Of a stretch of 64,000 nt of DNA, positions 18,495-63,120 are shown piece by piece. Origin of the DNA: Cephalotus follicularis (Eukaryota; Streptophyta; Magnoliopsida; Oxalidales; Cephalotaceae); contig BDDD01002126.1 of NCBI GenBank assembly GCA_001972305.1, forward strand, positions 121,407-185,406. The letters run 5' to 3'. Both the position numbers and the translations under genes were made by a program. The stretch's first letter is position 1, and each line of letters begins with the position of its first letter. Below the pieces are notes generated by a model. The model did no database searches. It was given only the letters and a program-made list of their open reading frames with translations, and was not told the origin of the DNA.

Positions 18495-18620
18495 ACAGCC
18501 GACTGTCACAGGGCAACAGTCGACTGGCTGGTCATGGAAGAACAGCCGTCTATCACAAGTAACAATCGACTGGTTGGTTTAACTAAGGACAGTCGACTGT
18601 CACAGGGTAACAGTCGACTG
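18495..18620 (+). repeat. CAG(T/C)CGACTG array 1 in 5' LTR of gypsy 1
   Basis: Six copies of a 10-bp near-palindrome, some decayed (for example ATCGACTG), spaced about 20-25 bp. The 3' LTR counterpart at 25,118-25,200 has four, being about 48 bp shorter. Confidence 0.85.
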
Positions 18621-19511
18621 GTTTGGCCAAGACAAGTGTCTGTGCATGGCGTTTGGAACATGGCAGTGGCAGCCTAAACGTGTCATGCAGGACTGATGCG
18701 TGCCACCAGGTGTGCAACATGCAAGAGTGGTTTCTTGCATGTGCTCTATTCCATCTACAGACCTGCAAAACCAGAAGAGAAAAGAGTAAGAAGAGGAGCA
18801 TGTGAGAGAGAGAAGAGAAAAGGGGAAACCTTGAGTTAATAGCTTGAACGAATTATTGGAACTTCGATTCTATATATCAGTGGTTATGTGAGTGACTACA
18901 ATGTTAGAACACTGAGTAAAGAGGAGAATCTTGCTGGTGATTCTGGACTTTGCATGTTGGAGCTAAAGTGTCCCATGAGTGTTAGAAGCTTCAAATTAAG
19001 AGGTAAGCTTCTGTTATGATTTCAAATGTGTTATAATCGTTCAATAGGTATATATGTACTGATTGTGTACTACGTATATCTCCTGTTAACATGCACACAT
19101 AGTTTAATTGCTGGAATTGGAGTTGAGTTGATATATAGTCTTGGAACTCAAAGAGAGTTTGAGGCTTAGGATTCCTCTGGTAAGTTGCTGGTTAATTCAG
19201 TAATGTTATGGTAGTTTGCCAACCATATGTAGTTACTGATTTTCGTTCTATATACCTGTCAACTGCACCTATAGCATTAAACTTCTGGATTGTTGGTGTT
19301 GAGCTGAAGTTGGAACTCAAAGAGAAGAATCAATCCAATTTGATTCTGGGATAGCGATTGAGGAGGGGTATTGACATGTTTTTTAAAATATAATATATAT
19401 ATCATGTCTGAATAATTTCTGTATGATTGCATGTTGTTAGTCGGATTGAATTGGACATTGAACATGCATACTCTGTTTCTGTCAAACTACTGTCTGTCGT
19501 TTTCTGGACAA

Positions 19512-19625
19512 AACAGTCGACTGTTGAGCCTAACAGTCGACTGCTAAATGTAAACAGCCGACTGTTAAGGACAAACAGTCGACTGCTCAATGTAAACAGC
19601 CGGCTATTATTATGAACAGTCGACT
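19512..19625 (+). repeat. CAG(T/C)CGACTG array 2 in 5' LTR of gypsy 1
   Basis: Six copies alternating CAGTCGACTG and CAGCCGACTG at about 20-bp spacing. The 3' LTR copy is at 26,097-26,212. Confidence 0.85.
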
Positions 19626-20909
19626 TTTGAGAGATAAATTACTGCTATCAGATACTGTTTAGGCTTAAATGATATGTAATTAACCTAGACTCCACATGGG
19701 ATGAGAGTAACATTCAATCCTGGCCATATGTAGTTACATTTCGGGAATTAAACAACTTATGCATTCCTTTTGTGAATTGTGTAAGTATGACCTTGGATAT
19801 GTTAATGAATCTTATTGAATCCTTGAATTAATACTGTCTATGTTGTTAAGCTGATATATTATGCTGCTGTTATAGGTATTATATATCCATTAAGTGTTCA
19901 TAAACACTATGGTTTCACTAAATTTCAAGGATTGAACAACTAAGTGCTATAAGCACAAATATGGATTTTAACAATGGTTTTCAAATGAAAAAAACTTACT
20001 GTCAAATGATTTACTGATTTTCCTCCCATGAGAGGTACCACTACTGTATTGATACTGTTTCCTCCAAAGAGAGGTACGGTCACTGAATTGTTAAATGTTT
20101 CTAAAAAAAAACTACTACTATATTGCATATTATAAATATATGTAATATTGCCATTGAACTGATTGAATGGTTTGTCTATGTTTATCGCCGTTAGTCTAGT
20201 GATAGGAGACATCATTGGCTACGGGGTGATCCTATGTGCCAGGAGTTGGCTAGAGCTTCCACCACACTTATCTGGGATGCAGATATTGATTGTTACCTGA
20301 CCGCTAAATGCCGGCAAAATTGTTACCTGATCTATCATGTTCGGAGTGTAGAGTGATAGTTAGGAGGTGCGCAATTGGTGCTAGGAGTTAGCGACATGTG
20401 ACACCCAACCACTGTATTGATTGATTTGACCCTTGTGCGATATTCTTGAATTATATTGTCTATGGTCACTTGGCATGATTGATCATATATATTGGAATAC
20501 TTAATTATATATATGTTTTCAAATAAATTGTCATACATGTTTACATTTATATATTCTTTCTCATGCTTTATTACTACTTAGTCGAATGAGGACAAAGGCT
20601 AACCCCACAATTTCAGATTGACGAAGGTGTTGGTCAAGTGCTGTTGAAGTTTTATTGGAGAGCTTCTATCTTCTTAAGGTTGTTAAAGATAATCATACTC
20701 CGTTTGTTATTTTTACATTTCCAATATGTAAAAAATAACTTGTTTTGTATTGTGTAAACACGTAGTATGGGCTGCGTGCGGATAATCTTAATAATCCGAT
20801 TATGGAATGCTTCCGCTTTTGTTTAATGAATTTGGATTAATGTTGAATTCTGGATTATTTTAACTGATATCTCCATATATGTTGTCTTTGGAAACGGGGT
20901 GTGACAACA

Positions 20910-20921
20910 TGGTATCGGAGC
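20910..20921 (+). other. Primer binding site of gypsy element 1
   Basis: TGGTATCGGAGC, one mismatch to the initiator tRNA-Met complement, three bases after the end of the 5' LTR. Confidence 0.85.
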
Positions 20922-21013
20922 TTATTTTTTAAATAAGCTATCGCTGGAATAAGTTTCTCGGTAATTAAGTGTATTGTTTCCTGATGATTGTGTCATTCCA
21001 TAGAGGAAACAGA

Positions 21014-22027
21014 ATGGATCTACGAAGAGGTAGAAGGGGAAGGCATAGAGCCGACGAAGGAATCAATGCTCCGCCAGTGCATGGAAATGATCCGCCAGTG
21101 AATGAAGGAGTAAACATCCCTCCAGTGCAAGACGAGAGGAGTAATTTTGACCGCATGGCTGACCTTTTCCAGCAGCAGATTCAAGCCAATGCGACGAATA
21201 TGGAGCAGATTCGGCAGATGTACGAGACTAACCGAGCCTATCAGCATGCACCTGAAGCTTGTCATACTGGTGGATTTGGCAGAGATTTGGAGCAGTTCAT
21301 GAGACAGAATCCTCCGATATTCAATGGTGAGTTGAATGCTACTGTGGACGAGCAGTGGATTAGAGACCCGGAGAAAATATTTGCTGCTTTGGAGTGTACT
21401 GATGAGCAGAAGCTCAACTTTGCCATATACTGCTTATGGGGCGAGGCTACCTATTGGTGGGAGATGACTGAAGCAAAGTGTGAATCTCGAGGACTTGACA
21501 GGACTTGGGACAGATTTTAGTCTGAGTTCTCTATAGCTTATGTTCCACAGATGGAGTGTGACCGGAGGGAGACCGAGCTAATGGAGTTACGTCAAGGGGA
21601 TATGACGGTAGCTCAGTACCAGACTAGATTTGTGGAGTTGGCAAGGCATACACCCTATCTTGTGGAGGGTGAATTAAGGAAGATCCGAAGGTTTCTGAAA
21701 GGCCTTCGACCTGACATCAGATCTAAACTGTTGATGTTGCAGCTAACTTCTTTTGTAGATATTGCTGAAAGGGCGAGAATTCTGGAGGCCGATGCTAATG
21801 AAAGGAGAGTGGAGCGGTCTCGTACTAATCAATCGAGGCTTGCACAATCACAAGGGCAGGGAAGTAATAATCCTGCTAAATCGTCAAAGTCTGGTAATCG
21901 GGGTCAAGGAGGTTCTCAACGCAGTAATTCACGATCAATAACTCCTAACCGAAGCGGTCAACAGAATTCGGGTGGATGTACTTTCTATGGTCGCCAAAAC
22001 CATGATGAGAATGATTGTTGAAAAAAG
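21014..22027 (+). pseudogene. Gypsy 1 gag
   Basis: The frame starts at ATG 21,014 (MDLRRGRRGRHRADE), about 90 bp after the primer site. It contains the gag core: FGRDLEQFMRQNPPIFNGEL, WIRDPEKIFAALECTDEQKL, FAIYCLWGEATYWWEM, then ELMELRQGDMTVAQYQTRFV. The tail has two knuckle-like motifs. The first, CTFYGRQNHDENDC, has Tyr where the second Cys should be; the second, [14 protein letters not shown], is complete and lies just after 22,027 in the pol frame. Two in-frame stops (TAG at 21,518 and TGA at 22,019) sit where tryptophan is expected, as G-to-A changes would give. Gag runs into pol without a frame change. Confidence 0.87.
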
Positions 22028-24922
22028 ATGGGTAAATGCTTGAGGTGTGGCTCACAAGAGCATATGCTGAATGGTTGTCCAATGATGAGGGATCAAGCAC
22101 GCGGCCAACAGAGAGGTGCTGGTGCTAGTGGTAGTGTTGCGACTGCTCAACCGCGAAGGGATACCGGAAAGGGGATAGTGAAAGGTAGGGTATATACCTT
22201 ATCTAAAGATGATGTGCCAGAATCTACTTCTGTCGTGGGAGGTATCATTTTCATATCTGGCATATTAGCTCATGTATTGATTGATCCTGGTGCTACACAT
22301 TCATTCATTGCATCTGATTTTGCTTGCAACTTGCATGGTGTATCTTCTAGTTTGCCTTATGTATTGGAGGTGAGTACTCCAGTTGGTACTTGTCTTCTGT
22401 CTGATACTATAATGAACGATTGTGAGATCACGGTAACTGGGGTTCAGTTATCTGCTGACTTAATAGTGTTGCCTATCCGGGATTTTGATGTAATCTTGGG
22501 GATGGACTGGCTGTATGCTCATCATGCTTGTGTTAACTACTACAACAAGATGATGACCTTTTATCTTCGGGATGGGACTGAGTGCAAGTTTATCGGAGAG
22601 AAGAATGTTTCTGCTCCAATCATTTCGTACACTCGAGCAAATAAGTATCTCAAGCAAGGATGTGAAGGCTATTTGGCGTATGTGATTGATCATACGAAAG
22701 GTACGCCTATTATTGAGCAAGTTCCTATTGTATGTGATTTTTCTGACGTATTTCCAGATGATCTTACTTCATTGCCACCGGAAAGAGATGTAGAGTTCAA
22801 TATTGAACTAGTGCCTGGGACTGCTCCTATATCCAAAGCACCGTACCGAATGGCTCCTGCTGAACTGAAGGAGTTGAAAACTCAATTGCAGGATTATCTT
22901 GATAAGGGCTTCATCAGACCGAGTGTGTCACCGTGGGGAGCATCGGTCCTGTTTGTGAAAAAGAAGGATGGGTCGATGAGGCTATGCATCGATTGCAAGC
23001 TGCTGAATCAGGTAACTGTGAAGAACAAGTATCCTCTGCCACATATTAAGGAGTTGTTCGACCAATTGCAAGGCTCAACTGTATTCTCCAAACTTGACCT
23101 GAGAACAGGTTATCATTAGTTGAGGATCCGAGAAGGCGATGTGGAGAAGACTGTATTTCGAACCAGATATGGGCACTACGAATTTCTGATACTGCCGTTT
23201 GGTTTGACAAATGATACTGCAGCCTTTATGTGTTTGATGAACAGAGTGTTCCAGCCCTATCTTGACCAGTTTGTCGTTATATTCTTAGACGACATCCTGA
23301 TTTATGCGAGGAGTATTGAGGAGCACATGCAGCATTTGAGGATTGTGTTGCAGACATTGCGGAAGGAACAGTTATTCGCCAAATTCAGCAAGTGCGAGTT
23401 TTGGCTAGATCATGTGACTTTCCTAGGTCACATTGTGTCGAGTGAAGGATTGTCGGTGGATCCTTCGAAGATAGAGAGTATTGTTGATTGGCCCCAACCG
23501 AGGAGCGTTACTATGGTTCGTAGCTTCTTGGGATTGGCTGGCTACTACCGAAGGTTCATCCAAGGGTTCTCGAAACTTGCTACACCATTGACACGATTGA
23601 CTCAGAATAAGTCAAGTTTTGTGTGGGATGATTCTTGTGAGGCAAGTTTCCAAGAGTTGAAGAGTCGGTTGATTTCGGCTCTAGTGTTGGCATTACCGAA
23701 GGGTAATGAGGGCTTTACTGTTTATACTGATGCTTCTGGGAAGAGATTGGGATGCGTTCTTATGCAACATGGTAGGGTGATTGCATACGCACCGAGAAAG
23801 TTGAAGCTGTACGAAGAAAATTACCCGTACACGATCTTGAGTTGACAACCATAGTATTCGCTTTACAGAAATGGAGACACTATCTCTATTGTGCTCAATT
23901 TGAGATCTTCACTGACCATAAAATTTTAAAGTATTTATTTTCCCAGAAGGAGCTCAACATGAGACAGAGACGATGGGTGGAGTTCTTTAATGATTATAAC
24001 TGCAACATTCAATACCACCCAGAAAAGGCGAATGTAGTGGCGGACGCGCTGAGTCGCAAGGCAATGATTGTTGGTGCAATGGTTTCACAGTGGAAGCTAT
24101 TGGAGGAATTTCAGAGATGGAATCCGTTCAGCCTTGAACTTCAGTACTGCGTTCCACCCACAGACCGACGGACAGTCCGAGCGTACCATTCAGACTCTTG
24201 AAGATATGCTGCGGGCTTGTATGATTGATTTCGCTGGGAGTTGGGAGGATCATCTGCCACTGATTGAGTTCTCTTACAACAACAGCTATCACACCAACAT
24301 TGGGATGGCTCCTTATGAAGCCTTGTATGGGAGGAAGTACAGAGCTCCTATTTGCTGGGATGAGGTGGGTGAGAAACAAATGCTGGGACCAGACTTGGTG
24401 CAAGAGACTACTGATAAAGTGGAAGTAATCAAGAAGAGATTACTAGCTGCACAGAGCCGGCAAAAGAGTTATGCTGACATAAAAAGGAGAAAGCTAGAAT
24501 TTGAGAAGGGAGATCATGTTTTTCTGAAGATCTCGCCTTCGAAAGGGATACACCGTTTTGGCCTCAAGGGGAAGTTGGCTCCAAGGTACATTGGACCTTA
24601 TGAGATACTGGAGAGAGTGGGGGAAGTGGCATATCAAATTGCACTACCGCCCAGTTTGTCGAATGTGCATAACGTATTTCATGTTTCCATGTTACGGAAA
24701 TACATACCCGACCCATCTCACATATTGAGCTACGACCCTGGATTCATCAGTGATAACTTATCTTATGAAGAGAGGCCGACGAAGATTGTTGATCGAATGG
24801 AGAAAGTACTGAGGAATAAGACTATTCCTATGGTAAAGGTATTGTGGCGGTTTCACAGGGTCGAAGAAGCAACCTGGGAACGTGAAGCTGAGATGATGGA
24901 AACATTTCCTCACTTGTTCTGA
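22028..24922 (+). pseudogene. Gypsy 1 pol: protease, reverse transcriptase, RNase H, partial integrase, chromodomain
   Basis: The protease has [13 protein letters not shown], where the usual D-S-G has become D-P-G. Reverse transcriptase follows: [43 protein letters not shown], then the active site [12 protein letters not shown]. RNase H has [16 protein letters not shown] and FTDHKILKYLF. A TAG at 23,117 and a one-base frameshift near 23,830 interrupt it. Near 24,110-24,140 RNase H jumps straight to STAFHPQTDGQSERTIQTLE, so the integrase zinc domain and most of the catalytic core are deleted (roughly 0.9-1 kb by comparison with gypsy 2). The C-terminus has GPYEILERVGEVAYQIALPP and a chromodomain (MVKVLWRFHRVEEATWERE). 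Confidence 0.9.
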
Positions 24923-24967
24923 ATGTACAAGCTAAATTCGGGGACGAATTTTCTTTAAGGAGGGGAA

Positions 24968-27486
24968 TGTAATACCCGCAATTTTCAAATAATGTATATT
25001 GTACACTTGATGAATAAAATATGCATTATATTGAGATTTAATGTCCAATTGTTATATGAATTGTGGTTATTGAATTAATTGAGGGAATAAACTTAAGTAA
25101 CCAGAATCAGCACCTAACAGCCGACTGTCACAAGGCAACAGTCGACTGGTTGGTTATGGAAGAACAGCCGACTGTCACAGGGTAACAGTCGACTGGTCTG
25201 GCTCAGACAAGTGTCTGTGCATGGCGTGTGGAACAGGGCAGTGGCAGCCTAAACGTGTCATGCAGGACTGATGCGTGCCACCAGGTGTGCAACATGCAAG
25301 AGTGGTGTCTTGCATGTGCTCTATTCCATCTGCAGACCTGCAACCTGCAAAACCAGAAGAGAACAGAGTAAGAAGAGGTGCATGTGAGAAACAGAAGAGA
25401 AAAGTGGAAACCTTGGGTTAATAGCTTGAACGAATTATTGGAACTTCGATTCTATATATCAGTGGTTATGTGAGTGACTACAGTGTTAGAACACTGAGTA
25501 AAGAGGAGAATCTTGCTGGTGATTCTGGACTTTGCATGTTGGAGCTAAAGTGTCCCATGAGTGTTAGAAGCTTGAAATTAAGAGGTAAGCTTCTTTTATG
25601 ATTTCAAATGTGTTATAATCGTTCAATAGGTATATATGTACCGATTGTAAACTACGTATATCTCCTGTTAATATGCACACATAGTTTAATTGCTGGAATT
25701 GGAGTTGAGTTGATATAAAGAGTCTTGGAACTCAAAGAGAGTTTGAGGCTTAGGATTCCTCTGGTAAAATGCTGGTTAATTCAGTAATGTTATGCTAGTT
25801 AGGCAACCATATGTAGTTACTGATTTTCGTTCTATATACCTGTCAACTGCACCTATAGCATTAAACTTCTGGATTGTTGGTGTTGAGTTGAAGTTGAAAC
25901 TCAAAGAGAAGAATCAATCCAATTTGATTCTGGGATAACAATTGAGGTTGGGGTATTGACATGTTTTTGAAGATATAATATGTATATCACGTCTGAATAA
26001 TTTCTGTATGATTGCATGTTGTTAGTCGGATTGAATTGCACATTGAACATGCATACTCTGTTTCTGTCAAACTACTGCCAGTCGTTTTCTGGACAAAACA
26101 GTCCACTGTTGAGCCTAACAGTCGACTGCTAAATGTAAACAGCCGACTGTTAAGGACAAACAGTCGACTGCTCAATGTAAACAGCCGGCTATTCTTATGA
26201 ATAGTCGACTATTGAGAGATAAATTACTGCTATTAGATACTGTTTAGGCTTAAATGATATGTAATTAACCTGGCCTCCACATGGGATGAGCGTAACATTC
26301 AATCCTGGCCATATGTAGTTACATTTCGGGAATTAAACAACTTATGCATTCCTTATGTGAATTGTGTAAGCATGACCTTGGATATGTTAATGAATCTTGT
26401 TGAATCCTTGAATTGATACTGTCTATGTTGTTAAGCTGTTATATTATGCTGCTGTTATAGGTATTATATATCCATTAAGTGATCATAAACACTATGGTTT
26501 CACTAAATTTCAAGGATTGAACAACTAAGTGCTATAAGCACAAATATGGATTTTAACTATGGTTTTCAAATGAAAAAAACTTACTGTCAAATGATTAATT
26601 GATTTTCCTCCCATGAGAGGTACCACTACTGTATTGATACTGTTTCCGTCACTGAATTGTTAAATGTTTCTAAAAAAAACTACTATTATATTGCATATTA
26701 TAAATATATGTAATATTGCTATTGAACTGATTGAATTGTTTGTCTATATTTATCGCCGTTAGTCTAGTGATAGGAGACATCATTGGCTACGGGGTGATCC
26801 TATGTACCAGGAGTTGGCTAAAGCTTCCACCACACTTATCTGCGATACAGATCTTGATTGTTACCTGCCCGCTAAATGCCGGCAAAATTGTTACCTGATC
26901 TATCATCTTCGGAGTGTAGGGTGATAGTTAGGCGGTGCGCAGTTGGTGCTAGGAGTTAGCGACATGTGACACCCAACCACTGTATTGATTGATTTTACCC
27001 TTGCGCGATATTCTTGAATTGTATTGTCTATGGCCACTTGGCATGATTGATCATATATATTAGAATACTTAATTATATATATGTTTTCAAATAAAATGTC
27101 ATACATGTTTACATTTATATATTCTTTCTCATGCTTTATTACTACTTAGCCGAATGAGGACAAAGGCTAACCCCTACAATTTCAGATTGACGAAGGTGTT
27201 TGTCAAGTGTTGCTGAAGCTTTATTGGAGAGCTTCTATCTTCTTAAGGTTGTTAAAGACTGTATTGTAATAATCATACTCCGTTTGTTATTTTTACATTT
27301 CCAATATGTAAAAGATAACTTGTTTTGTATTGTGTAAGCACGTAGTATGGGCTGCGTGCGGATAATCTTAATAATCCGGTTATGGAATGCTTCCGCTTTT
27401 GTTTAATGAATTTGGATTAATGTTGAATGTGGATTATTTTAACTGATATCTCCATATATGTTGTCTTTGGAAAACGGGGTGTGACA
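24968..27486 (+). repeat. 3' LTR of gypsy element 1
   Basis: 2,519 bp from TGTAATACCCGC to GGGGTGTGACA. By eye it is highly similar to the 5' LTR, with small indels, including about 48 bp fewer in the first motif array and a loss near 26,646. Confidence 0.9.
25118..26212 (+). repeat. CAG(T/C)CGACTG arrays in 3' LTR of gypsy 1
   Basis: Two clusters: 25,118-25,200 (four copies) and 26,097-26,212 (six copies, with decays such as CAGTCCACTG and TAGTCGACTA). Confidence 0.8.
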
Positions 27487-30802: not shown

Positions 30803-31134
30803 TGTCACACCCCGAACCACGAGGAGGACCCCACAACCCAACGCGTGACATACCTTTCATACAATCCGTCTTTATACTTCATAACATACTATTCAAAATA
30901 CGCTATAAATTTAAAACTTTAATACAAACTCATGCATGCGGAAAGCAACCCTTCAAATACTTAAATTAGATGAACCCAACCATATCCACAATACATCATA
31001 CATAACTGGAGCACTACCACAAGCCCGCAGATCAACACAACTATATACAATATGTTTCTTACACAACAAGGTAGATAAAGGAAACTGCATTGTAGCTAGA
31101 CATCCGACTCTGCAAACCATCTCGTCTCACGTCG

Positions 31135-31260
31135 AGGCGTCCTCAGCACTCATCCCTAAAATGTTGTGCCCATTTCGAGAATGGGTCTGCCAAACATAGG
31201 CGTCCTCAGCACTCATCCCTAAAATGTTGTGCCCATTTCGAGAATGGGTCTGCCAAACAT
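31135..31260. repeat. Perfect tandem duplication, 63-bp unit
   Basis: Two consecutive identical units begin at 31,135 and 31,198 (AGGCGTCCTCAGCACTCATC...). The identity suggests a recent slip or unequal exchange, or an assembly artefact. Confidence 0.9.
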
Positions 31261-32219
31261 AGCTATGTAGATAATACTATATGCAATGAAGTGAACAAGT
31301 ATATACAGATATATGCATGGCATGTGAAATGCATGAATGTCAATTGTGGACAATGTTAGTATATCAACCGTTCCTAACCGGTGATATACTTAACGAGTCC
31401 TAATCATAGAAAAGACCATAGGTCTGCAGACACTCCATATGCCAATCCATAACCATCCATGGGTCAAACAATCCGTAAGGTGTGAATACCACTCTGCCCA
31501 TACGGCCCAAGATAGTACTACCACCGACTACCTACCTTTTCAAGGTCGTAGCCGAGTGGGGTCGAGATAACACTGACCACATCATTCATACGATAAGGCT
31601 TGTCCTCAATGGTCCCAGCCAACGATAATACAAGGCTTGTCCTCAATCGTCCTAGCTCAAGATAAGATATTCTCATTGGTTCGCCCACAATGTGGTGATC
31701 CCCGTAGGTCCACCCCTAAAGTGGGGTCCCGTAACCCTCCATATGATGTAGTCTAACACCCATAACCTTCATGACGAATATGAAGATTATGAATGGGTTA
31801 TCTCATCAGGTCTCAAACAATAGCAACCATCAATCATAACCATATACAGCCCGTAACCCATGACCATATAATTATTTAAATGATAGGGGCCTAACCATAA
31901 AGGATCACGAAAGATCCATCCGTCAAAACCATTTTCCATAACCATTTCTCGGTCCCTATCGGAGTTGAGAAAACAATGGAGAGGAAGTCCAACTAGGATA
32001 TTCATGTCCAAACATCCTAATTGAACTAACATAACCATTTATTGAAAATCTCTTTAAAAATCCATTTGAAGATTTATTTTGAAGATCATTTGGTTTAAAT
32101 AAGGGTTCGCATAGGTTACACGGCCTTAAAGAGGTTTCCTATGGGACACATTTGAAGATAAAAGCGTTTGGGGTAGAAAAGGATTGAAAACATTGTATAT
32201 CGGCTGAAAACAGGTTATA

Positions 32220-37647: not shown

Positions 37648-37787
37648 TGTAACGCCCGGGTTTTCGGTAAAGTGTAATGTTGCTTTTCCAATGTAATTTT
37701 GCACCTTGTGTTAATGGGAACCGTGTTTTTCCTCTTTTGTGTGTTGGAAGTTGCAAGAAAAGTGTGTTTGTGTGCTTTGAAGCAGTG

Positions 37788-50260: not shown

Positions 50261-50560
50261 TTGACGCTATGGGTTTTAGGCGTTGACGCGAAGACAAATG
50301 AGACTCAGCGCCTGTTTCATCTTATCCATGGCATTGACGCCTAGATAATATGAGACGCATGGAGTTGACGCCATGACAGGCTGATGCGCGGTTTTAAGGA
50401 GAGAGAAAGTCAGACTATAAACAGCTTGAGAGAAGCTTCTTCAACAAACTTTGACTCTTTCTCTTTCTCTCTCTTCCCAGCCTTGCTTTCTCTTCTTCCT
50501 GCTTGCGTACGCGTCAACGCCTATCATCTACACGTTGACGCCTACTTCGCCTGTTGCGAA
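50261..50560 (+). repeat. GGCGTTGACGC array, right half, in the copia-like LTR
   Basis: Continues the array broken at 47,690: TTGACGCTATGG, GGCGTTGACGCG, GGCATTGACGCC, GGAGTTGACGCCATG, and inverted forms GCGTCAACGCC and ACGTTGACGCC to about 50,545. Confidence 0.7.
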
Positions 50561-51829: not shown

Positions 51830-54481
51830 TGTCACGCCCCGGTTTCTGGTAGACACACATAAAGGTGGTAAGACAATTAACATAAAGACTCAGCTTATGC
51901 AAAACCATAGAATTTAAACTTTTCAAATATGATATGAGTTGCGAAAGTATTAAAACTCATAAGCTGAAAAACTTGTAACGTGCATCCCATACTGCACGCT
52001 ACTCAAAATATGTATGTCATAGTTAAAAGCCCACAAAACGGAGCGTGATCCATAATACATTAATACAACCCATCGTTAAACAAAACCAGATTATTACAGA
52101 GCAGAAGAATATAAAACCAACAACAGCAACATAAAGCTTGTTCTTCGTCCAAGCTAGTCCAACCGGTCCACAACATCAATCTGTAAAGTAGGGGGTTAGC
52201 CGTTGTCCTTACTTGGCTAAGTCATAAAGGTAGCTCGGGATCAACATTAAATGCATGTCATGTAATGTATGCATAAATGATGCAGTGCAGTAGAAAATAC
52301 CAGTTTATATATATATATGAAAATATATATACTTTAGAAGTACAGTAAAATAACAGTAGGGACATATATATGAAAATATATGTATGCAACAACAGTATAG
52401 TGGTAACCCGGCCAGGGCTACATCAACAGGCACAGCAATGTCTGAAAAGGACTAACAAGCAGTACAGTAAGTCCGCAAAAGGACCACAAACAGGCAGGCA
52501 GTATGTGCAGCGCTGCCAACTCCTGGCCCCACGCTACACTCCCACTTCGGTTCCTTCTCCAGGGAACCAAGTGAGGCAACAGTACAATACAGTGAGTTAT
52601 CCAGCCAACTCTTGGCTCCTAGGTCAACCCTGCCACTAGCCGGCGCTGGCAGTCTCCGCCATGCAACCAGTGGCTCAAGCAAAACCACATAAAATTCACA
52701 GAGCAAACAGTGCATAGTCATAGTAAATAGTGCAGTAAACAGTACAGTAATGATCGTTAGATCAACAACAGGCAGTTTATTCCCAAATATTTTCAAAGGT
52801 GGTAACATTTGAAATATGTATTTCTAATAGATAGAAAACACTTTAAACAGTTTAGTAGTGGAAATCGCTTCCCAAATATGTTCGAAAATATTCGAAAATA
52901 TAACAATATTCATTTTATATTTTCATACCTAATATAGTAGTTTTCAACTCGTATATGCACTTCTAATATAACAATACTTAGAAATCATAATCAAGTTATA
53001 ACCAGTCAATAACAAGCAGTAAACAGTACATATGCAATGCATACAAATGTTTAAATGCATCCTAACAGGAATCGGGATCGATTCGTATCGTTAAATAAGA
53101 AAACTCCCAAACAGTACAAGAAGGCGTCGATGTCTATTATTAGGCGTCGATGTCTTTGTCCCTCAGCGTCGACGTTCAAGTCCTTAGTGTCAGCGCTTTC
53201 CACTGTTTGAAGACGTCGATGTCCATCTTTATACGCATCGATGCTCAAGGTATGGAACCTTAAACGTCAGCGTATTGCTTAAGGCGTCAACGCGTTAAGG
53301 TAGGAACCTTAGGCGTCGACGTGTAATACGTCAAAATCCAAGCAGATAACCCAAAGGCGTCGATGTTATTCAAAGACGTCGACGTGTTTCGAGCACCTGT
53401 CGTCTTCTTCCTCACGACGTGACAAACAGTGACCATCAAAATGCACATACATGCCAGATAACATGTAATCAAGGTAGGAAACTAACATGCAGACACATAT
53501 CACATATCCAGCATAACATGGCATTGATCCAGTGATAAAAAACGGTTCAATAATCGTACAATCTATGCACCAAAACCATAGTCCAAGCATGAACATTAAT
53601 CTCAAGAATACAGTTATGGCTTCCCCTACCTTTTTGTTCCAAGTTAGGAACTATAAAGTCCACCTCTTTAAGTCCTAAAACTTGCCACAACAGCTCCAAG
53701 GATCATCCCATTGCTACTAGCCCACAGCTTCAAGTTCCAAGCTCCAAAACGCTCAACAATGGTGGTTCCCTTCTCTCTTTCACTTTCTGTTTTCTTACTC
53801 TGGTGTTTTAGCCGAACCAAGGATGAAGAGAGGAGCATTTATGCTTTGGGGAACCCTCTCTCTCATTCTCTATGTCTTTTGCATGCACCCTCTCCCGTGT
53901 CCTCCACCTTCACTTACTGTTTTTGTCCCTTTTCTCTTCATTTTTGTATGTTGCAGGTCATGAAGGTTCAGCCCCCTTGCATGCCAAAGGTTGAGGACAC
54001 GTTTTTGGTGCATGTCTGGCATCGGGCCGCATGGCCAACACGTTGCATTTGGTGCTCCTAGACGCCTTCAAAGTGATCCAGAATTGTTTCCCTTAGCACG
54101 TTACTCTGTCAGCAGAATAACATGCCCGTCATTCGATGTTACGCATCGGCGTCTTCTTTAGACGTCGATGTCTTACTCCTTTTTACACGATGGCGTCGAT
54201 GTTCTCGCCTGCATCGACGTGCATGTGCATGCAGCTACGTGCGACTCTCTGTTCCAAAGGCATCGATGAGTTCGAAAAGGCATCGACGTGTTTTCCTCAA
54301 AACAACGCTATTTTACTTCAAATTGCCCTTTTTTCATTTCTTTAACATTTTGTCCCAAAATCAATATCATTAGAGTTTGGAAAACATCATCAAAGTTGGA
54401 AAATCCATCACTTAATTAATTCCACAATAAAAGTACATTTACATCGTGAAATTATAACATATGAAAATCTCGGGCGTTACA
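51830..54481 (-). repeat. 3' LTR of gypsy 2
   Basis: 2,652 bp, plus strand TGTCACGCCCCGG to CGGGCGTTACA. It has about 146 bp (52,297-52,442, rich in ATATAT) that the other LTR lacks. It carries the block CCCCTACCT...TTCCAAGTTAGGAA (53,623-53,651). Confidence 0.92.
53120..53400. repeat. GGCGTCGATGTC array in 3' LTR of gypsy 2
   Basis: About ten motifs of type GGCGTCGA(T/C)GT, some inverted or decayed (ACGCATCGATGC, AGACGTCGACGTG). A second smaller cluster lies at 54,145-54,300. The right LTR has the same at 59,265-59,540 and 60,285-60,440. Confidence 0.82.
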
Positions 54482-54526
54482 TCCACTCCTCATTCAAGGA
54501 ATTTCGTCCTCAAAATTAAAACAATA

Positions 54527-55862
54527 CTAGAACAAGTGCGGGTAACTCTCTTGGATACTCTCCTCGCGTTCCCAAGTTGCTTCATCCGGTCGGTGGAACT
54601 GCCATTGAACCTTGACCATGGAGATGGTTCGGTTCCTCAAAATCCGCGTCTTCTGATCTAGAATCCGTACCGGCAACTCCTCACAAGATAGGTTATCTCG
54701 TACCATAACAGTATCATAATCCAGGATATGTGATAGATCCAGAATATATCTCCTCAGCATAGATATATGAAAGACGTCGTGCACGTTTGACAGTGCAGGA
54801 GGTAAGGCAAGCTGGTAAGCTACCTCCCCAACTTTTTCCAAAATCTCAAAAGGACCAATATAGTGTGGAGCTAATTTGCCCTTTTTCCCAAACCTTTGCA
54901 CGCCTTTCCATGGTAATACCTTCAAGAACACGTGATCACCCACACTGAAGGTCAAAGGCCTCCTCTTGACACTGTCCACATAGCTCTTCTACCGACTCTG
55001 AGCAGCAAACAACTTCTCTTTAATCACCCTGATCTTTTCTGAAGTTTCCTCCACTAACTCAGTCACGAGTAAAGGTCGCTCCCCAACTTTATCCCAACAT
55101 ATCAGAGATCTGTATTTCCTCCCATACAGTGCTTCAAAAGGTGCCATGCAGATACTAGAATGATAGCTGTTATTATAAGAAAACTCTATCAAAGGAATGT
55201 GATCCTCCCATGTACCAGCAAAGTCAATAACGCAAGCCCGTAGCATATCCTCCAAGGTCTGGATGATACGCTCAAACTGCCCATCTGTCTGAGGGTGAAA
55301 GGCAGTACTCATGTTCAGCTTCATCCCGAAAGTTGTCTGAAATCTCTTCTAGAAGTTGGAAGTGAAGATGGCATCTCTATCATATACGATGCTAACTGGA
55401 ACACCGTGTAGCCTCACTATCTCCTTCACATACAACCGAGCTAGCTCGCTCGCAGAATCCGTAACGTGTGTAGGCAGAAAGTGCGATGATTTGGTGAGTC
55501 TATCCACGATAACCCACACGACGTTGTGACGGTTCTGAGTCAGAGGAAAAACCGAAACAAAGTCCATCGTAACATGTTCCCACTTCCACTTTGGAATTGG
55601 TAAAGGCTGTAGCAATCCAGCCGGTCTCTGGTGCTCAGCTTTAACTGTCTGGCAAGTCAAACACCTTGCCACATACTCGAAGATTTCTCATTTCATGCCA
55701 AGCCACCAGTAATCCCTCTTTAGGTCTTGGTACATTTTTTTTGCTACCAGGGTGGATGTTGTACTGAGATCTATGAGCCTCGTAAAGTAACTCACTCTTC
55801 AACCCTGGTTCATTCGGAAGACACACACGTCCCCGAAATCTTAAGACACCATCGACATGTAT
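54527..55862 (-). pseudogene. Gypsy 2 integrase and chromodomain
   Basis: The integrase zinc domain has HRSQYNIHPGSKK and [16 protein letters not shown]. The core has [35 protein letters not shown] and [15 protein letters not shown], then STAFHPQTDGQFERIIQTLE, giving the D,D-35-E residues. The C-terminal domain has GPFEILEKVGEVAYQLALPP. The chromodomain (about 54,527-54,700) has ILRNRTISMVKVQWQFHRPD and EATWEREESIQESYPHLF. Stops near 55,350 and 54,989 replace expected tryptophan or glutamine codons. This is the part deleted in gypsy 1. Confidence 0.9.
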
Positions 55863-56910
55863 TCAAAAATCAGACTCCAAGTCCAGATTGTCTCGAATCT
55901 TTTGCAATTCAGGATCGTGTGCTTGAGCGTTCTTTATTTCGTCAAGCAAAATTGGTTGTACTCTCATGCTAGCCATAAAGACTCCAGGTGACTGATTAAA
56001 CAGAAACCACTCTTGGAAGTCTTCTAACATCTTCCATTGAGACACCATCGCACTGGCAACCATAGCCTTGCGGCTCAAGGCATTAGCGACCACATTCACT
56101 TTCCCCGGGTGGTACTGAACACTACAATCATAATCGTTAAAGAATTCTACCCACCTGCGTTGCCTCATGTTCAGTGTATCTTGACAAAACAGATACCTCA
56201 AACTCTTATGATCTGTAAAGATCTCAAACTGCGCCCCATAAAGATAGTGCCTCCACTTCTGATGGGCGAAGATAATAGCTGCAAGTTCAAGGTCATGAGT
56301 CGGGTAGTTTTCTTCATATGGCTTTAGCTTCGTGGAAGCATAAGCGATCACTCTCCCTCGCTACATCAGCACGCAGCCCAAGCCCTTGCCCGATGCATCT
56401 CTGTAGACTGCAAAGCCCTCATTACCATTAGGTAATGCCAAGACAAGAGCGGAAACTAACCGATCCTTCAGTTCACGGAAACTAGCCTCGCAATCTTCGT
56501 CCCAAACAATTAAGGCCTTCTTCTAGGCCAGTCTAGTCAAGGGCACGACTATCCTCGAAAAGTTCTGGATAAACCTCCTGTAATACCCCGCCAATCCAAG
56601 GAAACTGCATACCTCCATCACATTCTTCGGTTGTGGATAGTCTTGTACCACTTCAGTCTTTGACGGGTCCACAGTCAAGCCTTCCCCAGATACGATGTGA
56701 CCGAGAAAGATCACATGATCAAGCCAAAATTCACACTTGTTGAACTTGGCGTACAACCGATGCTATCTAAGAACTTGCAATACCAGCCTTAGATGATGAG
56801 TGTGTTCCTCCTCACTCTTTGAATATACCAGTATGTCATCAATAAACACTACGATGAACTGATCCAAGTATGGTCAGAATACGTCATTCACCTTGTTCAT
56901 GTCGGGTAAC
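55863..56910 (-). pseudogene. Gypsy 2 reverse transcriptase (second half) and RNase H
   Basis: Begins at the fingers/palm boundary with [20 protein letters not shown] (active site FIDDI). It continues with [39 protein letters not shown] and the RNase H segment FAVYRDASGKGLGCVLM, where the first catalytic Asp of TDAS is changed (YRDAS). The end is [14 protein letters not shown] and [20 protein letters not shown]. Stops lie near 56,762, 56,525 and 56,360. The first half of reverse transcriptase and the protease are absent. Confidence 0.87.
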
Positions 56911-57205
56911 TCTATGCAAGTCCCCCAACTCATTACCAAAAGTTATTCAATATGAATCAATATCTAAGCGATACGATTCATATTCTTTGATTATGTTATC
57001 AGGGTTCTATAAGTCCCCTAAGTATGCATGTGGTTTCGTACTAGCCTATACATGTGCATAACCGTTCATCAATATAGTACCACGAACTATCATTCTCTTA
57101 CTCGTTAGTTAGTCCCAAAGTCCAACTTAACATTCACTTAACCACGGCTATAATAAGGTCTACCGATTAACAACATTATGATGCAAGTAAGAGTGAAAAT
57201 TACCT
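56911..57205 (-). other. Non-coding spacer replacing protease and first half of reverse transcriptase
   Basis: About 300 bp between the gag knuckles and the reverse transcriptase palm, AT-rich, with no protease or reverse transcriptase similarity. Either filler DNA at a deletion or part of the non-autonomous element's own sequence. Confidence 0.5.
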
Positions 57206-57963
57206 CTCATGATGCCCTTGCCCTTGCCTCCCCGCTGCGAAGGTCCAGCTGTAGCCTCACTACTACCTGTAAGTCCCGTAGGTACTGCTCCTTGTCTCTC
57301 CGGACAATCCCTCAGCAAATGATCAGAGGCCCCGCACCTTAGGCACCCTCCGTTCTACTTCCAGCAGATCCTCAGCTGGTGATCCGTGCGACCACAGTGT
57401 GTGCAACCTCCAGCTCTCGCATTCCTTCCCTGACCAGGGGTTCCACGGTTAGTAGTTTGTTGAGGTGGATCCCTTGTACAATTCTTCATCACATGGCCAG
57501 TTGCCCCACACTTGATGCATAACTTATTCTTCAACCAACAGTCTTCCACTTGATGGCCCGCACGATCGCAGTAAAAGCAAACCCTAGACCTTATATCATC
57601 TTCTTGACTCAGAGTTCCTTCAGTGGCCGTTTGTTGAGAACTGTTCTTTGATGACTTGGTTGAAGAGCCACCATCTTGCCATTCTGACAGAGCTGGTCTA
57701 GTCCGTCTAACTTACTGAGCTTGAACATACAACTGCCGCATTTCCTCTAAGTGAGCTGTATTAGCAGCTATCTGTTGCTGGAAATAGTCAGCAATACGAT
57801 CCGTGTATGACCACTTCATCTCTTGCAGATGAATCGTGCTAGCAGCCATCTGCTATTAAAAATATTCTTTTATGCGGTCCTCCGGATCACTTCTCTCGTT
57901 CACCTCTTGAGGAACGTCCTCCGTAACAGTTCGAGACCTCATATGCCTTCTCCTTCCGTCCAT
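57206..57963 (-). pseudogene. Gypsy 2 gag-like protein with four zinc knuckles
   Basis: Starts at ATG 57,963 (MDGRRRHMRSRTVTEDVPQ). After a doubled stop it has a short helix-like part (YFQQQIAANTAHLEEMRQLY) and then goes directly to the knuckle region; the ~150-residue gag core found in gypsy 1 is missing. Four CCHC motifs follow, each exactly C-x2-C-x4-H-x4-C: CFYCDRAGHQVEDC (57,538-57,579), CIKCGATGHVMKNC (57,478-57,519), CTHCGRTDHQLRIC (57,364-57,405) and CLRCGASDHLLRDC (57,304-57,345). Stops near 57,715 and 57,355 also occur. Most plant gypsy gags have one or two knuckles. Confidence 0.85.
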
Positions 57964-58112
57964 ATTTTGTTCCTATATGGAAATATTGTCATCAGTAATT
58001 ATCTCAAGGAAACAATTCGTTAATCACCAAGGAATTCATTAGCTTGAATAAGTTCCTTATCTAATTGGTTAATTGCCGAGGATAATATCCTAGCTAAGCA
58101 TATATGAAATAT

Positions 58113-58124
58113 GCTCTGATACCA
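58113..58124 (-). other. Primer binding site of gypsy 2
   Basis: Minus strand TGGTATCAGAGC, a perfect initiator tRNA-Met match, four bases inside the 5' LTR boundary at 58,129. Confidence 0.9.
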
Positions 58125-58128
58125 CTAT

Positions 58129-60625
58129 TGTCACGCCTCGGTTTCCGGTAGACACACATAAAGGTGGTAAGGCAATTAACATAAAGACTCAGCTTATGCA
58201 AAACCATAACATTTAAACTTTTCAAACATGATATCAGTTGCGGAAACATTAAAACTCATAAGCTGAAAAACTTATAACGTGCATCCCATACTGCACGCTA
58301 CACAAAACATGTCTGTCATAGTTAAAAGCCCACAAAATGGAGCATGATCCATAATACATTAGTACAACCCATCGTTAAACAAAACTAGATTATTACAGAG
58401 CAGAAGAATATAAAACCAACAACAGCAACATAAAGCTTGTTCTTCGTCCAAGCTAGTCCAACCGGTCCACTGCATCAATCTGTAAAGTAGGGGGTTAGCC
58501 TTTGTCCTCACTTGGCCAAGTCATAAAGGTAGCTCGTGATCAACATTAAATGCATGTCATGTAATGTATGCATAAATGATGCAGTGCAGTAATGTCCGAA
58601 AAGGACTAACAAGCAGTATAGTAAGTCCACAAAGGGACCACAAACAGGCAGGCAGTATGTGCAGCGCCGCCAACTCCTGGCCCCACGCTACACTCCCACT
58701 TCGGTTCCTTCTCCAGGCAACCAAGTGAGGCAACAATACAGTACAGTGAGTTACCCAGCCAACTCCTGGCTCCTAGGTCAACCCTGCCACTAGCCGGCGC
58801 TAGCAGTCTCCGCCATGCAACCAGTGGCTCAAGCACAACCACATAAAATTCACAGAGCAAATAGTGCATAGTCATAATAAATAGTGTAGTAAACAGTATA
58901 GTACTGATCGTTAGATCAACAACAGGCAGTTTATTCCCAAATATTTTCAAAGGTGATAACATTTGAAATATGTATTTCTAATAGATAGAAAATACTTTAA
59001 ACAGTTTAGTAGTGGAAATCGCTTCCCAAATATGTTCAAAAATATAACAATATTCATTTTATATTTTCGTACCCAACATAGTAGTTTTCAACTAGTTTAT
59101 GCACTTCTAATATAACAATACTTAGAAATCATAATCAAGTTATAACCAGTCAATAACAAGTAGTAAACAGTACATATGCAATGCATACAAATGCTTAAAT
59201 GCATCCTAACAGGAATCAGGATTGATTCGTATCGTTAAATAAGAAAACTCCCAAACAGTACAAGAAGGCGTCGATGTCTTTTATTAGGCGTTGATGTCTT
59301 TGTCCCTCAACATCGACGTTCAAGTCCTTAGTGTCAACGCTTTCCACTATTTGAAGACGTCGATGTCCATATTTATACGCATTGACGCTCAAGGTATGGA
59401 ACCTTAAACATCAGCGTATTGCTTAAGCCGTTGACGCGTTAAGGTAGGAACCTTAGGCGTCGACGTGTAATACGTCAAAATCCAAGCAGATAACCCAAAG
59501 GCGTCGACGTTATTCAAAGACGTCGACGTGTTTCAAGCACCAGTCGTCTTCTTCCTCACGACGTGACAAACAGTGACCATCAAAATCCACATACATGAAA
59601 GATAACATATAATCAAGGCAGGAAACTAACATGCAGACACATATCACATATCCAGCATAACATGGCATTGATCCAGTGATAAAAAATGGTTCAATAATCG
59701 TACAATCTATGCACCAAAACCATAGTCCAAGCATGAACATTAATCTCAAGAATACAATTATGGCTTCCCCAACCTTTTTGTTCCAAGTTAGGAACTAGAA
59801 AGTCCACCTCTTTAAGTCCTAGAACCAGCCACAGCAGCTCCAAGGATCGTCCCATTGCTGCTAGCCCACAGCTTCAAGTTCCAAGCTCTAAAACGCTCAA
59901 CAATGGTGGTTCCCTTCTCCTTTTCACTTTCTATTTTCTTACTCTTGTGTTTTAGCCGAACCAAGGATGAAGAGAGGAGCAGTTATGCTTTGGGGAACCC
60001 TCTCTCTCCTTCTCTATGTCTGTTGCATGCACCCTCTCCCGTGTCCTCCACCTCCACTTACTGTTTTTGTCCCTTTTCTCTTCATTTTTGCAAGTTGCAG
60101 GTCATGAAGGTTTAGCCCCCTTGCATGCCAAAGATTGAGGACACGTTTTTGGTACATGTCTGGCATCGGGCCGCATGGCCAACACATTGCATTTGGTGAT
60201 TCTAGACGCCTACAAAGTGATCCAGAATTGTTTCCCTTAGCATGTTACTCTCTCAGCAGAATAATGTGCCCGTCATTTGATGTTACGCATCGACGTCTTC
60301 TTTAGACGTCGATGTCTTTCTCCTTTTTACACGAGGGCATCGATGTTCTCGTTTGCATCAACGTGCATGTGCATGCAGCTACATGCGTCTCTCTGTTCCA
60401 AAGGCATCGATGCGTTCGAAAAGACGTCGATGCGTTTTCCTCAAAACAGCGTCGTTTTACTTCAAATTGCCCTTTTTTCATTTCTTTAACATTTTGCCCC
60501 AAAATCAATATCATTAGAGTTTGGAAAACATCATCAAAGTTGGAAAATCCATTGCTTAATTAATTCCACAATAAAAGTACATTTACATCGTGAAATTATA
60601 TCATATGAAAATATCGGGCGTTACA
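58129..60625 (-). repeat. 5' LTR of gypsy 2
   Basis: 2,497 bp, plus strand TGTCACGCCTCGG to CGGGCGTTACA. Very similar to the left LTR apart from the ~146-bp indel and point changes, many in CG contexts. Confidence 0.92.
59265..60440. repeat. GGCGTCGATGTC arrays in 5' LTR of gypsy 2
   Basis: Clusters at 59,265-59,540 and 60,285-60,440, the counterparts of those in the left LTR; several cores differ between the copies (for example GGCGTCGATG against GGCGTTGATG). Confidence 0.8.
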
Positions 60626-60630
60626 TTTAG

Positions 60631-61392
60631 GATGCATGAGATGAATGTTTTTCTTTAACAATCTAAACACGTCCAAGCATGTTAAGTCGTCCAAATGGAT
60701 TAGAAGATTAAAAATAATCTAAAACGGCTTTGGTAATTTGTTAAAATTGATGAGACCAAATCCCTCAAACTTGCAAATAATAAGTCCATAAGCGGTAGGG
60801 CATATGGATGCCCTATCGTTGGCCTTCCACAATCATAGTTGAATGGTGTGGACATATTGGGGATGGCACTGTAAAATCAGGGTCCCCCGTATGACCATTT
60901 CTATTCAATTTTAGTGTGAGGTACACTGAAAGGAAATGACTTTGTTTTGGCATCGAGACATTGATATGTGTGGGTGCTTCAAAACAAGTTAATTTCTTTG
61001 AGGAATATGGGTGTGACTTATACCGGGATCATATGGTTTGCACAGCGGAAGTTGGGACCATATGGGCCGGGAGGCCGAATCTTGTATCGAATCTTACATA
61101 TGGGCGAGAGGTCCTAATGTAAATTAGTATACATACCTACATATTCAGGTATTATGGTTTGCATGGTGAAAGTTGGGTCTATAGTATTGTGGATAGATTC
61201 TGATCCTCACTAGGAAGCGAGAGGCTTCCCGAATTCCACATGCGGGTGTGGGATACGATTAGAATAGTAGAAGGCACCATAATTACGAAAGAGCAACTAT
61301 TATGATAATAATTTAAATGGAATGATTTGTTAATTAATCTCTCTCTTGTTTCCTCCTTTATAGGTTGCTAGTTATCACCATATTCTGCAACC
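60631..61392 (+). other. Leader of the copia-like element, part 2
   Basis: Continues the leader after gypsy 2 to the gag ATG. A phrase is repeated in diverged form about 125 bp apart (ATGGTTTGCACAGCGGAAG near 61,037 and ATGGTTTGCATGGTGAAAG near 61,155). No coding signal. Confidence 0.5.
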
Positions 61393-61567
61393 ATGTCAGT
61401 TGGCACAACACTTTCGCGCGTTCTTGAAACGAACAAGCTTACGGGTCCTAATTTCTTGGATTGACAGCGTAACTTGCGCTTAGCACTTACGAGCATAAAG
61501 CTTGCTCATGTCATGACTGAGAAGCCCCCAAAACTGGGAGCCAACCCATCAGAAGAGCTTAAGGCCA
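61393..61567 (+). pseudogene. Copia-like gag N-terminus, cut by a long LTR
   Basis: From ATG 61,393: MSVGTTLSRVLETNKLTGPN, FLD, a TGA in place of tryptophan, then QRNLRLALTSIKLAHVMTEK. The N-K-L-T-G-x-N-F/Y-x-x-W pattern is the usual start of plant copia gag. The frame is cut at 61,567 by the LTR that starts TGTAACGCC. Confidence 0.77.
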
Positions 61568-62209
61568 TGTAACGCCTTAGAATTTCATAAATAATTATTA
61601 TGAAATTGGTGCGTGTACGATCGTAATAAAACCGATAGAGTCCTGGAGTGATAAAAGGGCATTTCACATTGAAGCCATAATTATGCTACCTAAAACGGCT
61701 ATTAAACCCTATTTTTAATGCGTGACAGTAAAGCCCAATGTTCGCATTATTATTACGGTTATTTTAGTGGCGATCAGATTAATAAATGTCACGATTCGCA
61801 GAAAAAACGGGACCCGGACCTTAATATTTGCTGGTAAAATACCATAAAGAAAAAGGGGGGAGCAATTATGAAAGAAAAAAGAAAGAGACACGGGTGCATA
61901 GCGCGCCCATGCAAAGAAGAGAGACAGACACGAGAGAGAGAGAGGCAGCGGGAAAGACAGCGGGAGAGAAAGGGAGAGAGGACGACGGAGCTAGCCACTT
62001 GACCTGGAGAGCACGACGGTCAGCCCAGGACCTCCAGCCGACAGTAACTTCTCCTTTCCTCTTCTCTTTTCCCTCTTTTTCTCTTCTCCTTCCCTGACGT
62101 TTTTGCCTCTGCCGTGCATTCCACCGTTGGTTAGCATCGCGGATGGAGGGGTTTTTCGTCTAGAAGGTCTGCTCTGTCCATTTTGACCACCGTTGAGGTG
62201 TGGTTCGGC

Positions 62210-62395
62210 CGGAATCAGTTGACTGAGTCGACTCAGCGAGTCGACTCACCGCCGCTTGAGACCGCTCGTTTGGCGACGAGTCTCGGCGAGTCTTGTGAAG
62301 GGATGTGTGTAACTGGTGAATGTGTGACGTTTTTGAGTGGCGATCGGACCTGTTGAGGTCCGGCGAGTTGACTCAGTGAGTCGCAACTCGCTATC
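62210..62395 (+). repeat. GAGTCGACTC motif cluster
   Basis: GTTGACTGAGTCGACTCAGC, then GAGTCGACTCACC and GAGTTGACTCAGTGAGTCGC; related GAGTCGAC words occur at 952-982 in the window. Confidence 0.7.
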
Positions 62396-62887
62396 ACCGG
62401 TGACATGCCTTTCGGCGCCGATTCACGGCGAATCTTGAGATGTTATGTGTAGATCGTTCAATGTGGAACCCATTTATGGGTGTTTCATAAGCTGGGTGAG
62501 TCGACCGGAATTCGGCCGGCGTTTCGGTGACGACAATGTTTTGTGTGCGTTGATCGTAATGAGAACGTGTTGTATATGCAGTGTGAAAAAAGAGAGTCTT
62601 CGGGGTTGTGGACCTTGAACAGATGGACTGCGATTCCTAACTTGGAATCAGAGGTAGGGGTAATTGTATGGGATTTATACATGCATATTTGAGTTCAATT
62701 GTAATGAGTATTCATTTGATGAAGTGCATGGGTTGAGGATCGTGTGATTGGTGTTAGGGTTGCTATGAATAGTTAACCTGTCATTCATATTGTGTTTTGC
62801 AATGATTGTGAGTCAGATTGCATGTGTAGTATGCTTTGAATTCTATTGTTCTTGAGACGTGTTGAAGGAACCATGTTTTGGTTTGCT

Positions 62888-63120
62888 TAACCGTCGACGC
62901 TTAGGAAAGAAGCGTCGATGCTATGGACCGTTATACGGAGAATGAGCTCTGTTTTTGCGATAAACATCGACGCCATGATTCGTTGTGTGTGAGAATGGAC
63001 ACGTGTAATGTTGACGCCTGAGGTTCCTACCTCAAAGCGTCGACGCCAAGGGGAGAAGCATCGACGCTTAATGGTCCTTGCCTTGAGTATCGATGCCGAA
63101 GGGATGAGACATTGACGCGA
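62888..63120 (+). repeat. AGCGTCGACGC(C/T) array in the right-edge LTR
   Basis: About eight motifs: CCGTCGACGCTTAGG, AGCGTCGATGCTATGG, ACATCGACGCCATG, AGCGTCGACGCCAAGG, GCATCGACGCTTA, GTATCGATGCCGAAGG and ACATTGACGCG, spaced 20-45 bp. Confidence 0.8.

Follow-up and report, generated by a model that had tools for sequence, protein, structure and literature searches.

The long terminal repeats (LTRs) of retrotransposons in a 64-kb window of plant DNA (the window being the whole stretch analyzed, which is rich in LTR retrotransposons) carry arrays of short, largely palindromic words that are built on GTCGAC, recur most often about 21 bp apart, and differ between LTRs. We propose, with moderate confidence, that these arrays are homotypic clusters of sites for a dimeric protein, placed at two slots in the LTR, where they may raise or protect promoter activity, and that their words turn over by family. 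A first-pass annotation of this DNA had reported clusters of GTCGAC palindromes with family-specific flanks, and examination of the sequence found clusters at each of the places it gave. LTRs and elements are referred to below by the names used in Table 1.

GTCGAC occurs 41 times in the window, compared with an expectation of 5.8 from 100 dinucleotide shuffles of the window (shuffle maximum, 14), confirming that the core is over-represented. Thirty-eight copies fall inside nine LTR intervals totaling 17.4 kb, and 3 of the 41 lie outside. Perfect NNGTCGACNN palindromes are likewise in excess (19 copies versus 0.4 in the shuffles), and the commonest 10-bp palindrome in the window is CAGTCGACTG, with 12 copies. 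Calling sites with group matrices in element orientation yielded 109 sites across eight LTRs; we kept the 101 that form 11 arrays. The eight isolated sites were left out; they mean little, because the two matrices, at the same threshold, also match control sequence (7 and 22 hits over 21,666 bases). (A single matrix per array, tried first, gave 0 or 1 sites in R47, R49, R50, E54, and E60.) All eight LTRs have arrays, with 8 to 20 sites each. The words belong to CAGYCGACTG or GCGTCGACGC types, and the sites found with the group matrices bear out the family-specific flanks of the core; in D and C32 the words are palindromic only in part.

Within arrays, the 10-bp words are 63 to 96% alike and the spacers 20 to 43%, where word likeness (like the symmetry reported below) is inflated by the selection of sites on a symmetric score, to which spacers were not subject. 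Most spacers are near random. In array 2 of D, the word is 96% identical and the spacers 35%. The words are also regularly placed. We counted 6-mers near GTCGAC in the eight LTRs, with neighbor distances up to 60 bp, and found that 42 of 126 distances were 20 to 22 bp, versus 2.3 in shuffles (shuffle maximum, 6), with all eight LTRs contributing; the intervals of 17 to 35 bp described earlier thus resolve into a mode at 20 to 22 bp. A distance of 21 bp corresponds to two turns of B-DNA. A helical phase common to all spacings was considered and rejected (mean vector of 0.28 at 10.5 bp, with no peak). We also considered whether the arrays are simple tandem repeats in decay, without function, whose likeness stems from recent duplication. 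Array units do duplicate, as array 1 of the E1 3' LTR is one 47-bp doublet shorter than that of the 5' LTR (4 versus 6 sites), and Tandem Repeats Finder detects E1 array 2 and D array 2. Recent duplication, however, predicts equal likeness of words and spacers, which is not what the percentages above show, and we consider this explanation very improbable.

The two arms of the words change together from array to array: arm symmetry is 0.71, and exchanging the right halves among arrays lowers it to 0.41 (p 0.002, 2000 permutations; an optimistic value given that sites were chosen by a symmetric score and the words are two related types). We favor sites for a dimeric protein because of this joint change of the arms, the two-turn spacing, and the free spacers, and among the functions suggested in the first-pass annotation this one fits best; the protein itself we infer. 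Under this model, each array would be a homotypic cluster of 10- to 14-bp, largely dyad-symmetric sites about two helical turns apart, read by a dimeric, sequence-specific DNA-binding protein that is more probably a host product than one of the element. Aligned along a single face of the helix, bound copies would occupy two LTR slots, the first in the presumed U3 and the second farther along, in what is presumed to be transcribed, and would raise or protect the activity of the LTR promoter. Turnover of repeat units would allow a family to change the word in all copies, such that families drift to different words. CpG observed/expected ratios within the arrays exceed those of the rest of the LTR in eight of nine LTR copies, D being the exception, and a methylation-sensitive switch is possible.

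Many of the sites are directional rather than plain palindromes, since RYCGAC is found in the sense strand only at 28 of the 101 sites and in the antisense strand only at 6; it is present on both strands at 27 and on neither at 40, and hence in the sense strand of 55 and on some strand of 61. RYCGAC is a listed site of CBF proteins. This raised the possibility that the words are boxes resembling the dehydration-responsive element/C-repeat (DRE/CRT), bound by host AP2/ERF proteins of the DREB/CBF group, and that the LTRs respond to cold or drought, a reading favored by the prevalence of the core in the sense strand. Such boxes would leave unexplained the 40 sites without RYCGAC on either strand, which come mainly from R49 and H47 (21 of 25 cores in these two arrays); moreover, D alone accounts for 15 of the 28 sense-only sites, and the arms, which a 6-bp site does not need, are conserved as well. 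We therefore regard DRE/CRT-like boxes as improbable. The earlier description of the best copies as exact palindromes holds for the 19 perfect NNGTCGACNN copies, but not for D array 2 or for most cores of R49 and H47.

Palindromic words could also act as RNA or single-stranded DNA, with copies pairing into hairpins that attract small RNAs and silencing, similar to what has been proposed for maize Sireviruses. Five of the 11 arrays were folded as RNA, and four folded better than dinucleotide shuffles (z -2.8, -6.2, -4.3, and -4.1), while the R36 array did not (z -1.2); small-RNA hot spots at Sirevirus palindromes are described in the accessible parts of two publications (PMC5311732, PMC10760457). 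Good folding is expected of any set of palindromes, and for this reason folding scores were not accepted as evidence of RNA function. In addition, the core of D array 2 is GCCGAC in one orientation at 12 of 14 sites, which places two mismatches in each self-pair; this core spoils self-pairing and therefore favors reading as duplex DNA. Hairpins also do not require a 21-bp rhythm. A structural role thus appears unlikely. Palindromes can form kissing contacts in retroviruses, and array 2 would lie in the transcribed leader if our candidate TATA boxes are right; both points favor a signal for dimerization or packaging of the element's RNA genome. This suggestion of the first-pass annotation fares poorly, as array 1 lies within the presumed U3, R36 and R49 have array 1 only, and the most frequent D word lacks self-complementarity; we consider it extremely improbable.

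We next consider where the arrays lie. In E1, D, and E2, array 1 starts 141 to 191 bp and array 2 834 to 1167 bp from the LTR start, and both arrays hold the same word type in all three of these two-array LTRs. In their own orientation, R36 and R49 each show a single array, array 1, beginning 240 bp (R36) and 152 bp (R49) into the LTR. In E1, in D, and, by eye, in R36, a candidate TATA box lies past array 1, and array 2 is downstream of this box in E1 and D; the box is ambiguous in E2, and sequence inspection identified no candidate in F or C32. Array 1 is presumed to be located in U3. Past the candidate TATA position, seven of the 10 LTRs examined contain a splice donor-like AG/GTARG (E1, D, E2, F, R36, C32, and a further solo LTR, S), which R49, H47, and the poorly delimited Q lack. 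This motif ends a conserved block, CTAACTTGGA...AGGTAGGGG, that D, E2, and F share, and the distance from the motif to array 2 is 181 to 509 bp in the five LTRs E1, D, E2, F, and C32. The motif points to a possible leader intron beginning within the LTR, and array 2 may lie inside that intron. Donor-like sites of similar form were also seen in foreign loci such as L005 and L006, which are described below.

Homology between LTRs indicates that one slot can hold different words. (Evolutionary statements here are based on the copies within the window and a few foreign plant-like contigs.) Positions 603-719 of the D LTR match 1037-1163 of F, and 1147-1226 of D match 1555-1634 of F (a weak match, E 0.002), such that the homologous segments bracket the array on both sides. 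Similarly, two further segments of D have counterparts in E2, 605-828 aligning with E2 803-1027 and 1468-2352 with E2 1711-2652. Between the shared anchors, D has CAGCCGACTG, and E2 and F have related RTCGACGCC words in arrays that are partly alignable to each other. Because D, E2, and F share flanking homology, their arrays occupy one ancestral slot. The first-pass annotation had assigned the arrays to different families. Their words do differ, but their independence was overstated, and descent from one ancestral LTR segment accounts for the position of the arrays in D, E2, and F and not for their words. Other clusters listed there as separate are also related: those at 18.5/19.5 and 25.1/26.2 kb belong to the two LTRs of E1, and those at 53.1/54.1 and 59.3/60.3 kb to the two LTRs of E2. 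The clusters at 36.4 and 49.7 kb are homologous arrays of two related minus-strand solo LTRs, R36 and R49, whose sites can be paired one to one at eight positions. The solo LTR at 47691-50260 interrupts a single array, which had been listed as two clusters (47.5 and 50.3 kb).

LTR pairs of one element allowed us to compare words and spacers after insertion. In E2, 151 of 170 word positions and 247 of 256 spacer positions are identical (p 0.002), so that words decay faster than spacers; the likeness of the words therefore arose or was kept before insertion. Of the 19 word differences, 17 are transitions and 12 are at CpG, which fits methylation decay of silent copies. The TG and CA forms that the first-pass annotation took for decayed CG are thus supported by the E2 pair, but not by the E1 pair, where 1 of 3 word differences is at CpG. 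Protection of the words after insertion was rejected, as words and spacers are equal in the E1 pair and words changed more in the E2 pair.

Several observations weigh against a cluster of selected, palindromic sites. The E1 LTR pair shows equal conservation of words (97/100) and spacers (104/109). Between R36 and R49, words (61/80) are not significantly more conserved than spacers (99/144; p 0.28), and because this difference is small, the case for selection is weaker in that family. D array 2 consists mostly of CAGCCGACTG, with its 12 one-orientation GCCGAC cores, and the arms of C32 are asymmetric (0.27), neither of which fits a pure palindrome. Spacings other than the 21-bp mode share no helical phase, and the effects of site selection on word likeness, symmetry, and the arm permutation, described above, also count here. 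Finally, there is no GTCGAC array in seven plant-like loci that are related to the window elements (L003-L009), of which L004 and L007 are too short to judge; the arrays are therefore not a general mark of the lineage.

These loci came from searches for relatives in other contigs. In genome contigs, a single-protein query found no relatives, and an integrase alignment found 25 loci, with identities of 52 to 62% for L003-L009 and 26 to 39% for L010-L027. L003-L009 look like plant contamination of bacterial records. L004 and L007 extend 520 and 216 bases past the match, and a whole LTR is seemingly present only in L008. In viral contigs, neither an integrase-piece query nor a protease/reverse transcriptase (RT)-piece query found relatives. 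A CAGTCGACTG pair pattern matches two viral contigs (L001 and L002), and an alignment of 12 integrase sequences recovered one partial locus, L028, which contains scattered GTCGAC and no array. In the plant-like LTR of L003, within a bacterial record, we observed ACTATTCA in four direct, nonpalindromic copies 13 to 14 bp apart (positions 1935-1983).

The closest published parallels are the palindromic repeated motifs (RM) of Sirevirus LTRs (Bousios et al. 2010, PMC2829016). In the accessible text of that paper, RM are short, CpG-rich palindromic words, with at least eight copies per LTR, that vary by element, cluster ahead of the TATA box within the LTR's first half, and form a CpG island; array 1 here is presumably placed in a similar way, and the Vitis word, CGGTCGACCG, includes GTCGAC. 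The same text reports RM in Ty1/copia Sireviruses and their absence from the other Ty1/copia elements compared, whereas E1 and E2 are Ty3/gypsy, and gives a CGG-CCG core in all but one (Tnd-1), whereas the core here is mostly GTCGAC or a decayed form of it. The second, further-downstream array is also a difference, as is the 21-bp rhythm, which the accessible text does not describe for RM. Sirevirus palindromes described in 2016 likewise cluster in the regulatory part of the LTR, change fast, and are able to fold, but have another word and another superfamily (PMC5311732 and PMC10760457, accessible parts). No account of such arrays in Ty3/gypsy elements turned up in the literature searched, which covers few subscription papers.

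A second parallel is the VANC system of Arabidopsis VANDAL transposons. VANC motifs are described as short, dense, in one orientation, located upstream and in introns, and changing together within a repeat, with target arrays that change together between related families (PMC5735166, accessible parts). The arrays here similarly consist of dense, noncoding words, mostly in one orientation, that vary together between related families. They could therefore be anti-silencing arrays, in which a protein of the retroelement, or of a relative, binds the words and removes silencing marks, with word and protein co-evolving by family. Asymmetric cores in mainly the sense orientation (28 versus 6) and a word common to the whole array are consistent with this, and some Tekay elements encode an extra 5' open reading frame (ORF), according to the accessible part of PMC11728184. 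VANDAL elements, however, are Mutator-like DNA transposons that carry a VANC gene, and none was found among the E1 and E2 ORFs scanned; in addition, the accessible text of PMC5735166 does not describe the VANC21 word as a palindrome. Stop-to-stop ORFs of at least 150 amino acids in E1 and E2 are gag-pol-like only (5 of 7, the other two having no Pfam hit or being unsearched). No DUF1985 or other extra domain was found in the ten longer ORF pieces scanned, although both copies are decayed and may have lost an ORF. A core common to several families also fits a host protein better. We consider an element-encoded anti-silencing protein unlikely, if less so than the DRE/CRT or structural explanations. 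Collectively, the arrays resemble both Sirevirus RM and VANC arrays but lack defining features of RM, and no cognate VANC gene was found for them in the ORF pieces scanned.

The dimeric-protein model can be extended, more tentatively, to a view that we hold as a speculative possibility: that related Ty3/gypsy LTR families of one genome, with two fixed slots, dyad-symmetric words two turns apart, and wholesale exchange of the word in both slots, are in a specificity race with a dimeric trans-acting factor (a host activator or an anti-silencing protein), in parallel to VANC and VANDAL. If true, this would mean that palindromic LTR arrays are not confined to Ty1/copia Sireviruses but occur in Ty3/gypsy LTRs too, and would help explain the length and fast change of these LTRs. 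The natural variants, with one slot and different words, could then be used to find the reading protein; the 2010 Sirevirus paper, going by its accessible text, did not settle whether a protein recognizes palindromic arrays in LTRs, or which one (PMC2829016).

The array-bearing LTRs and elements are listed in Table 1, with LTR ends, flanking duplications, and strands taken from the sequence itself. E1 and E2 are Ty3/gypsy by their domains and domain order, which in E1 is gag, RVP_2, RT (27.1 bits; cut-off, 29.6), and then the integrase C-terminal SH3, and in E2 is RNase H followed by SH3 (domain scan of ten ORF pieces of E1 and E2). D and F are assigned to Ty3/gypsy through LTR homology to E2, and R36, R49, H47, and C32 are known as LTR sequence with no assigned internal region. 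A Chromo match in E2 scored 23.6 bits, just under the cut-off of 25.1, and PF00385 is present in some close relatives of the window integrase; these relatives, among the best 120 of 7996 matches, include named sequences from Tanacetum, Gossypium, Rosa, Citrus, Vitis, and other plants. Judging by LTR length, the elements may be Tekay-like. The strand of C32 was read from end-like sequence at 30803, near which a minus-strand LTR end seems to lie; its LTR start was not found by sequence inspection within the window.

Table 1. Array-bearing elements and LTRs in the window, with LTRs that contain a donor-like motif
Feature	Positions	Strand	Flanks	Arrays (sites)	Word or remark
E1, Ty3/gypsy element with two LTRs	18346-27486	+	TATAG and TAGAG (4/5 bases match)		Recognized by LTR pair, ends
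E1 5' LTR	18346-20906	+		Array 1, 18494-18622 (6); array 2, 19512-19628 (6)	AACAGYCGACTG
E1 3' LTR	24968-27486	+		Array 1, ~25116-25201 (4); array 2, ~26097-26213 (6)	
C32 array	32220-32502	-		11 sites	AACNGTCGACGCTT in presumed sense strand
R36 solo LTR	34078-36884	-	CCTCG target site duplication	Array 1, 36424-36646 (8)	AAGCGTCGACGCTT
D solo LTR	37648-39999	+	GTATC on both sides	Array 1, 37788-37922 (6); array 2, 38481-38794 (14)	CAGCCGACTG
H47 array, first part	47492-47690	+			GGCGTTGACGCCA; belongs to another LTR than R49
R49 solo LTR	47691-50260	-	TTGAC target site duplication	Own array, 49735-50109 (12)	
H47 array, second part, past R49 insertion	50261-50543	+		13 sites over both parts	
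E2, Ty3/gypsy element with two LTRs	51830-60625	-	TTTAG		
E2 LTR, 3' in element orientation	51830-54481	-		Array 1, 54141-54291 (6); array 2, 53122-53387 (11)	RACRTCGACGCCT
E2 LTR, 5' in element orientation	58129-60625	-		~60285-60435 and 59266-59531	
F array	62889-63120	+		8 sites	AAGCRTCGACGCC; LTR starts near 61568 and continues past window
LTRs with AG/GTARG (E1, D, E2, F, R36, C32, S)	18346-20906, 37648-39999, 51830-54481, 61568-64000, 34078-36884, 30803-33700, 6589-9081				

A few further features of the window were observed. Array length varies between the LTRs of a single element, as seen for array 1 of E1. R49 landed within a GCGTTGACGC array word of H47 (TTGAC at 47686-47690 and 50261-50265). 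The GAGTCGACTC cluster at 62.2 kb, which had been grouped with the other arrays, does contain two exact copies 13 bp apart and decayed copies, but does not share the 21-bp layout. Two GAGTCGAC copies 14 bp apart (957-976), absent from the list in the first-pass annotation, and a pair at 62227-62245 lie in weakly homologous stretches, F 491-889 being weakly homologous to window positions 762-1196. The solo LTR S (6589-9081, flanked by CCAAA) has an array of other palindromes, GCATGC (15 copies) and GAGCTC (9 copies), located ~750 to 1480 bp from the LTR start, past its donor-like site; many neighbor distances in it are 20 to 23 bp, a count confounded by a 116-bp tandem repeat. Finally, a 389-bp stretch at 44039-44427 is its own inverted repeat, at 72% identity, and resembles a foldback element or a miniature inverted-repeat transposable element.

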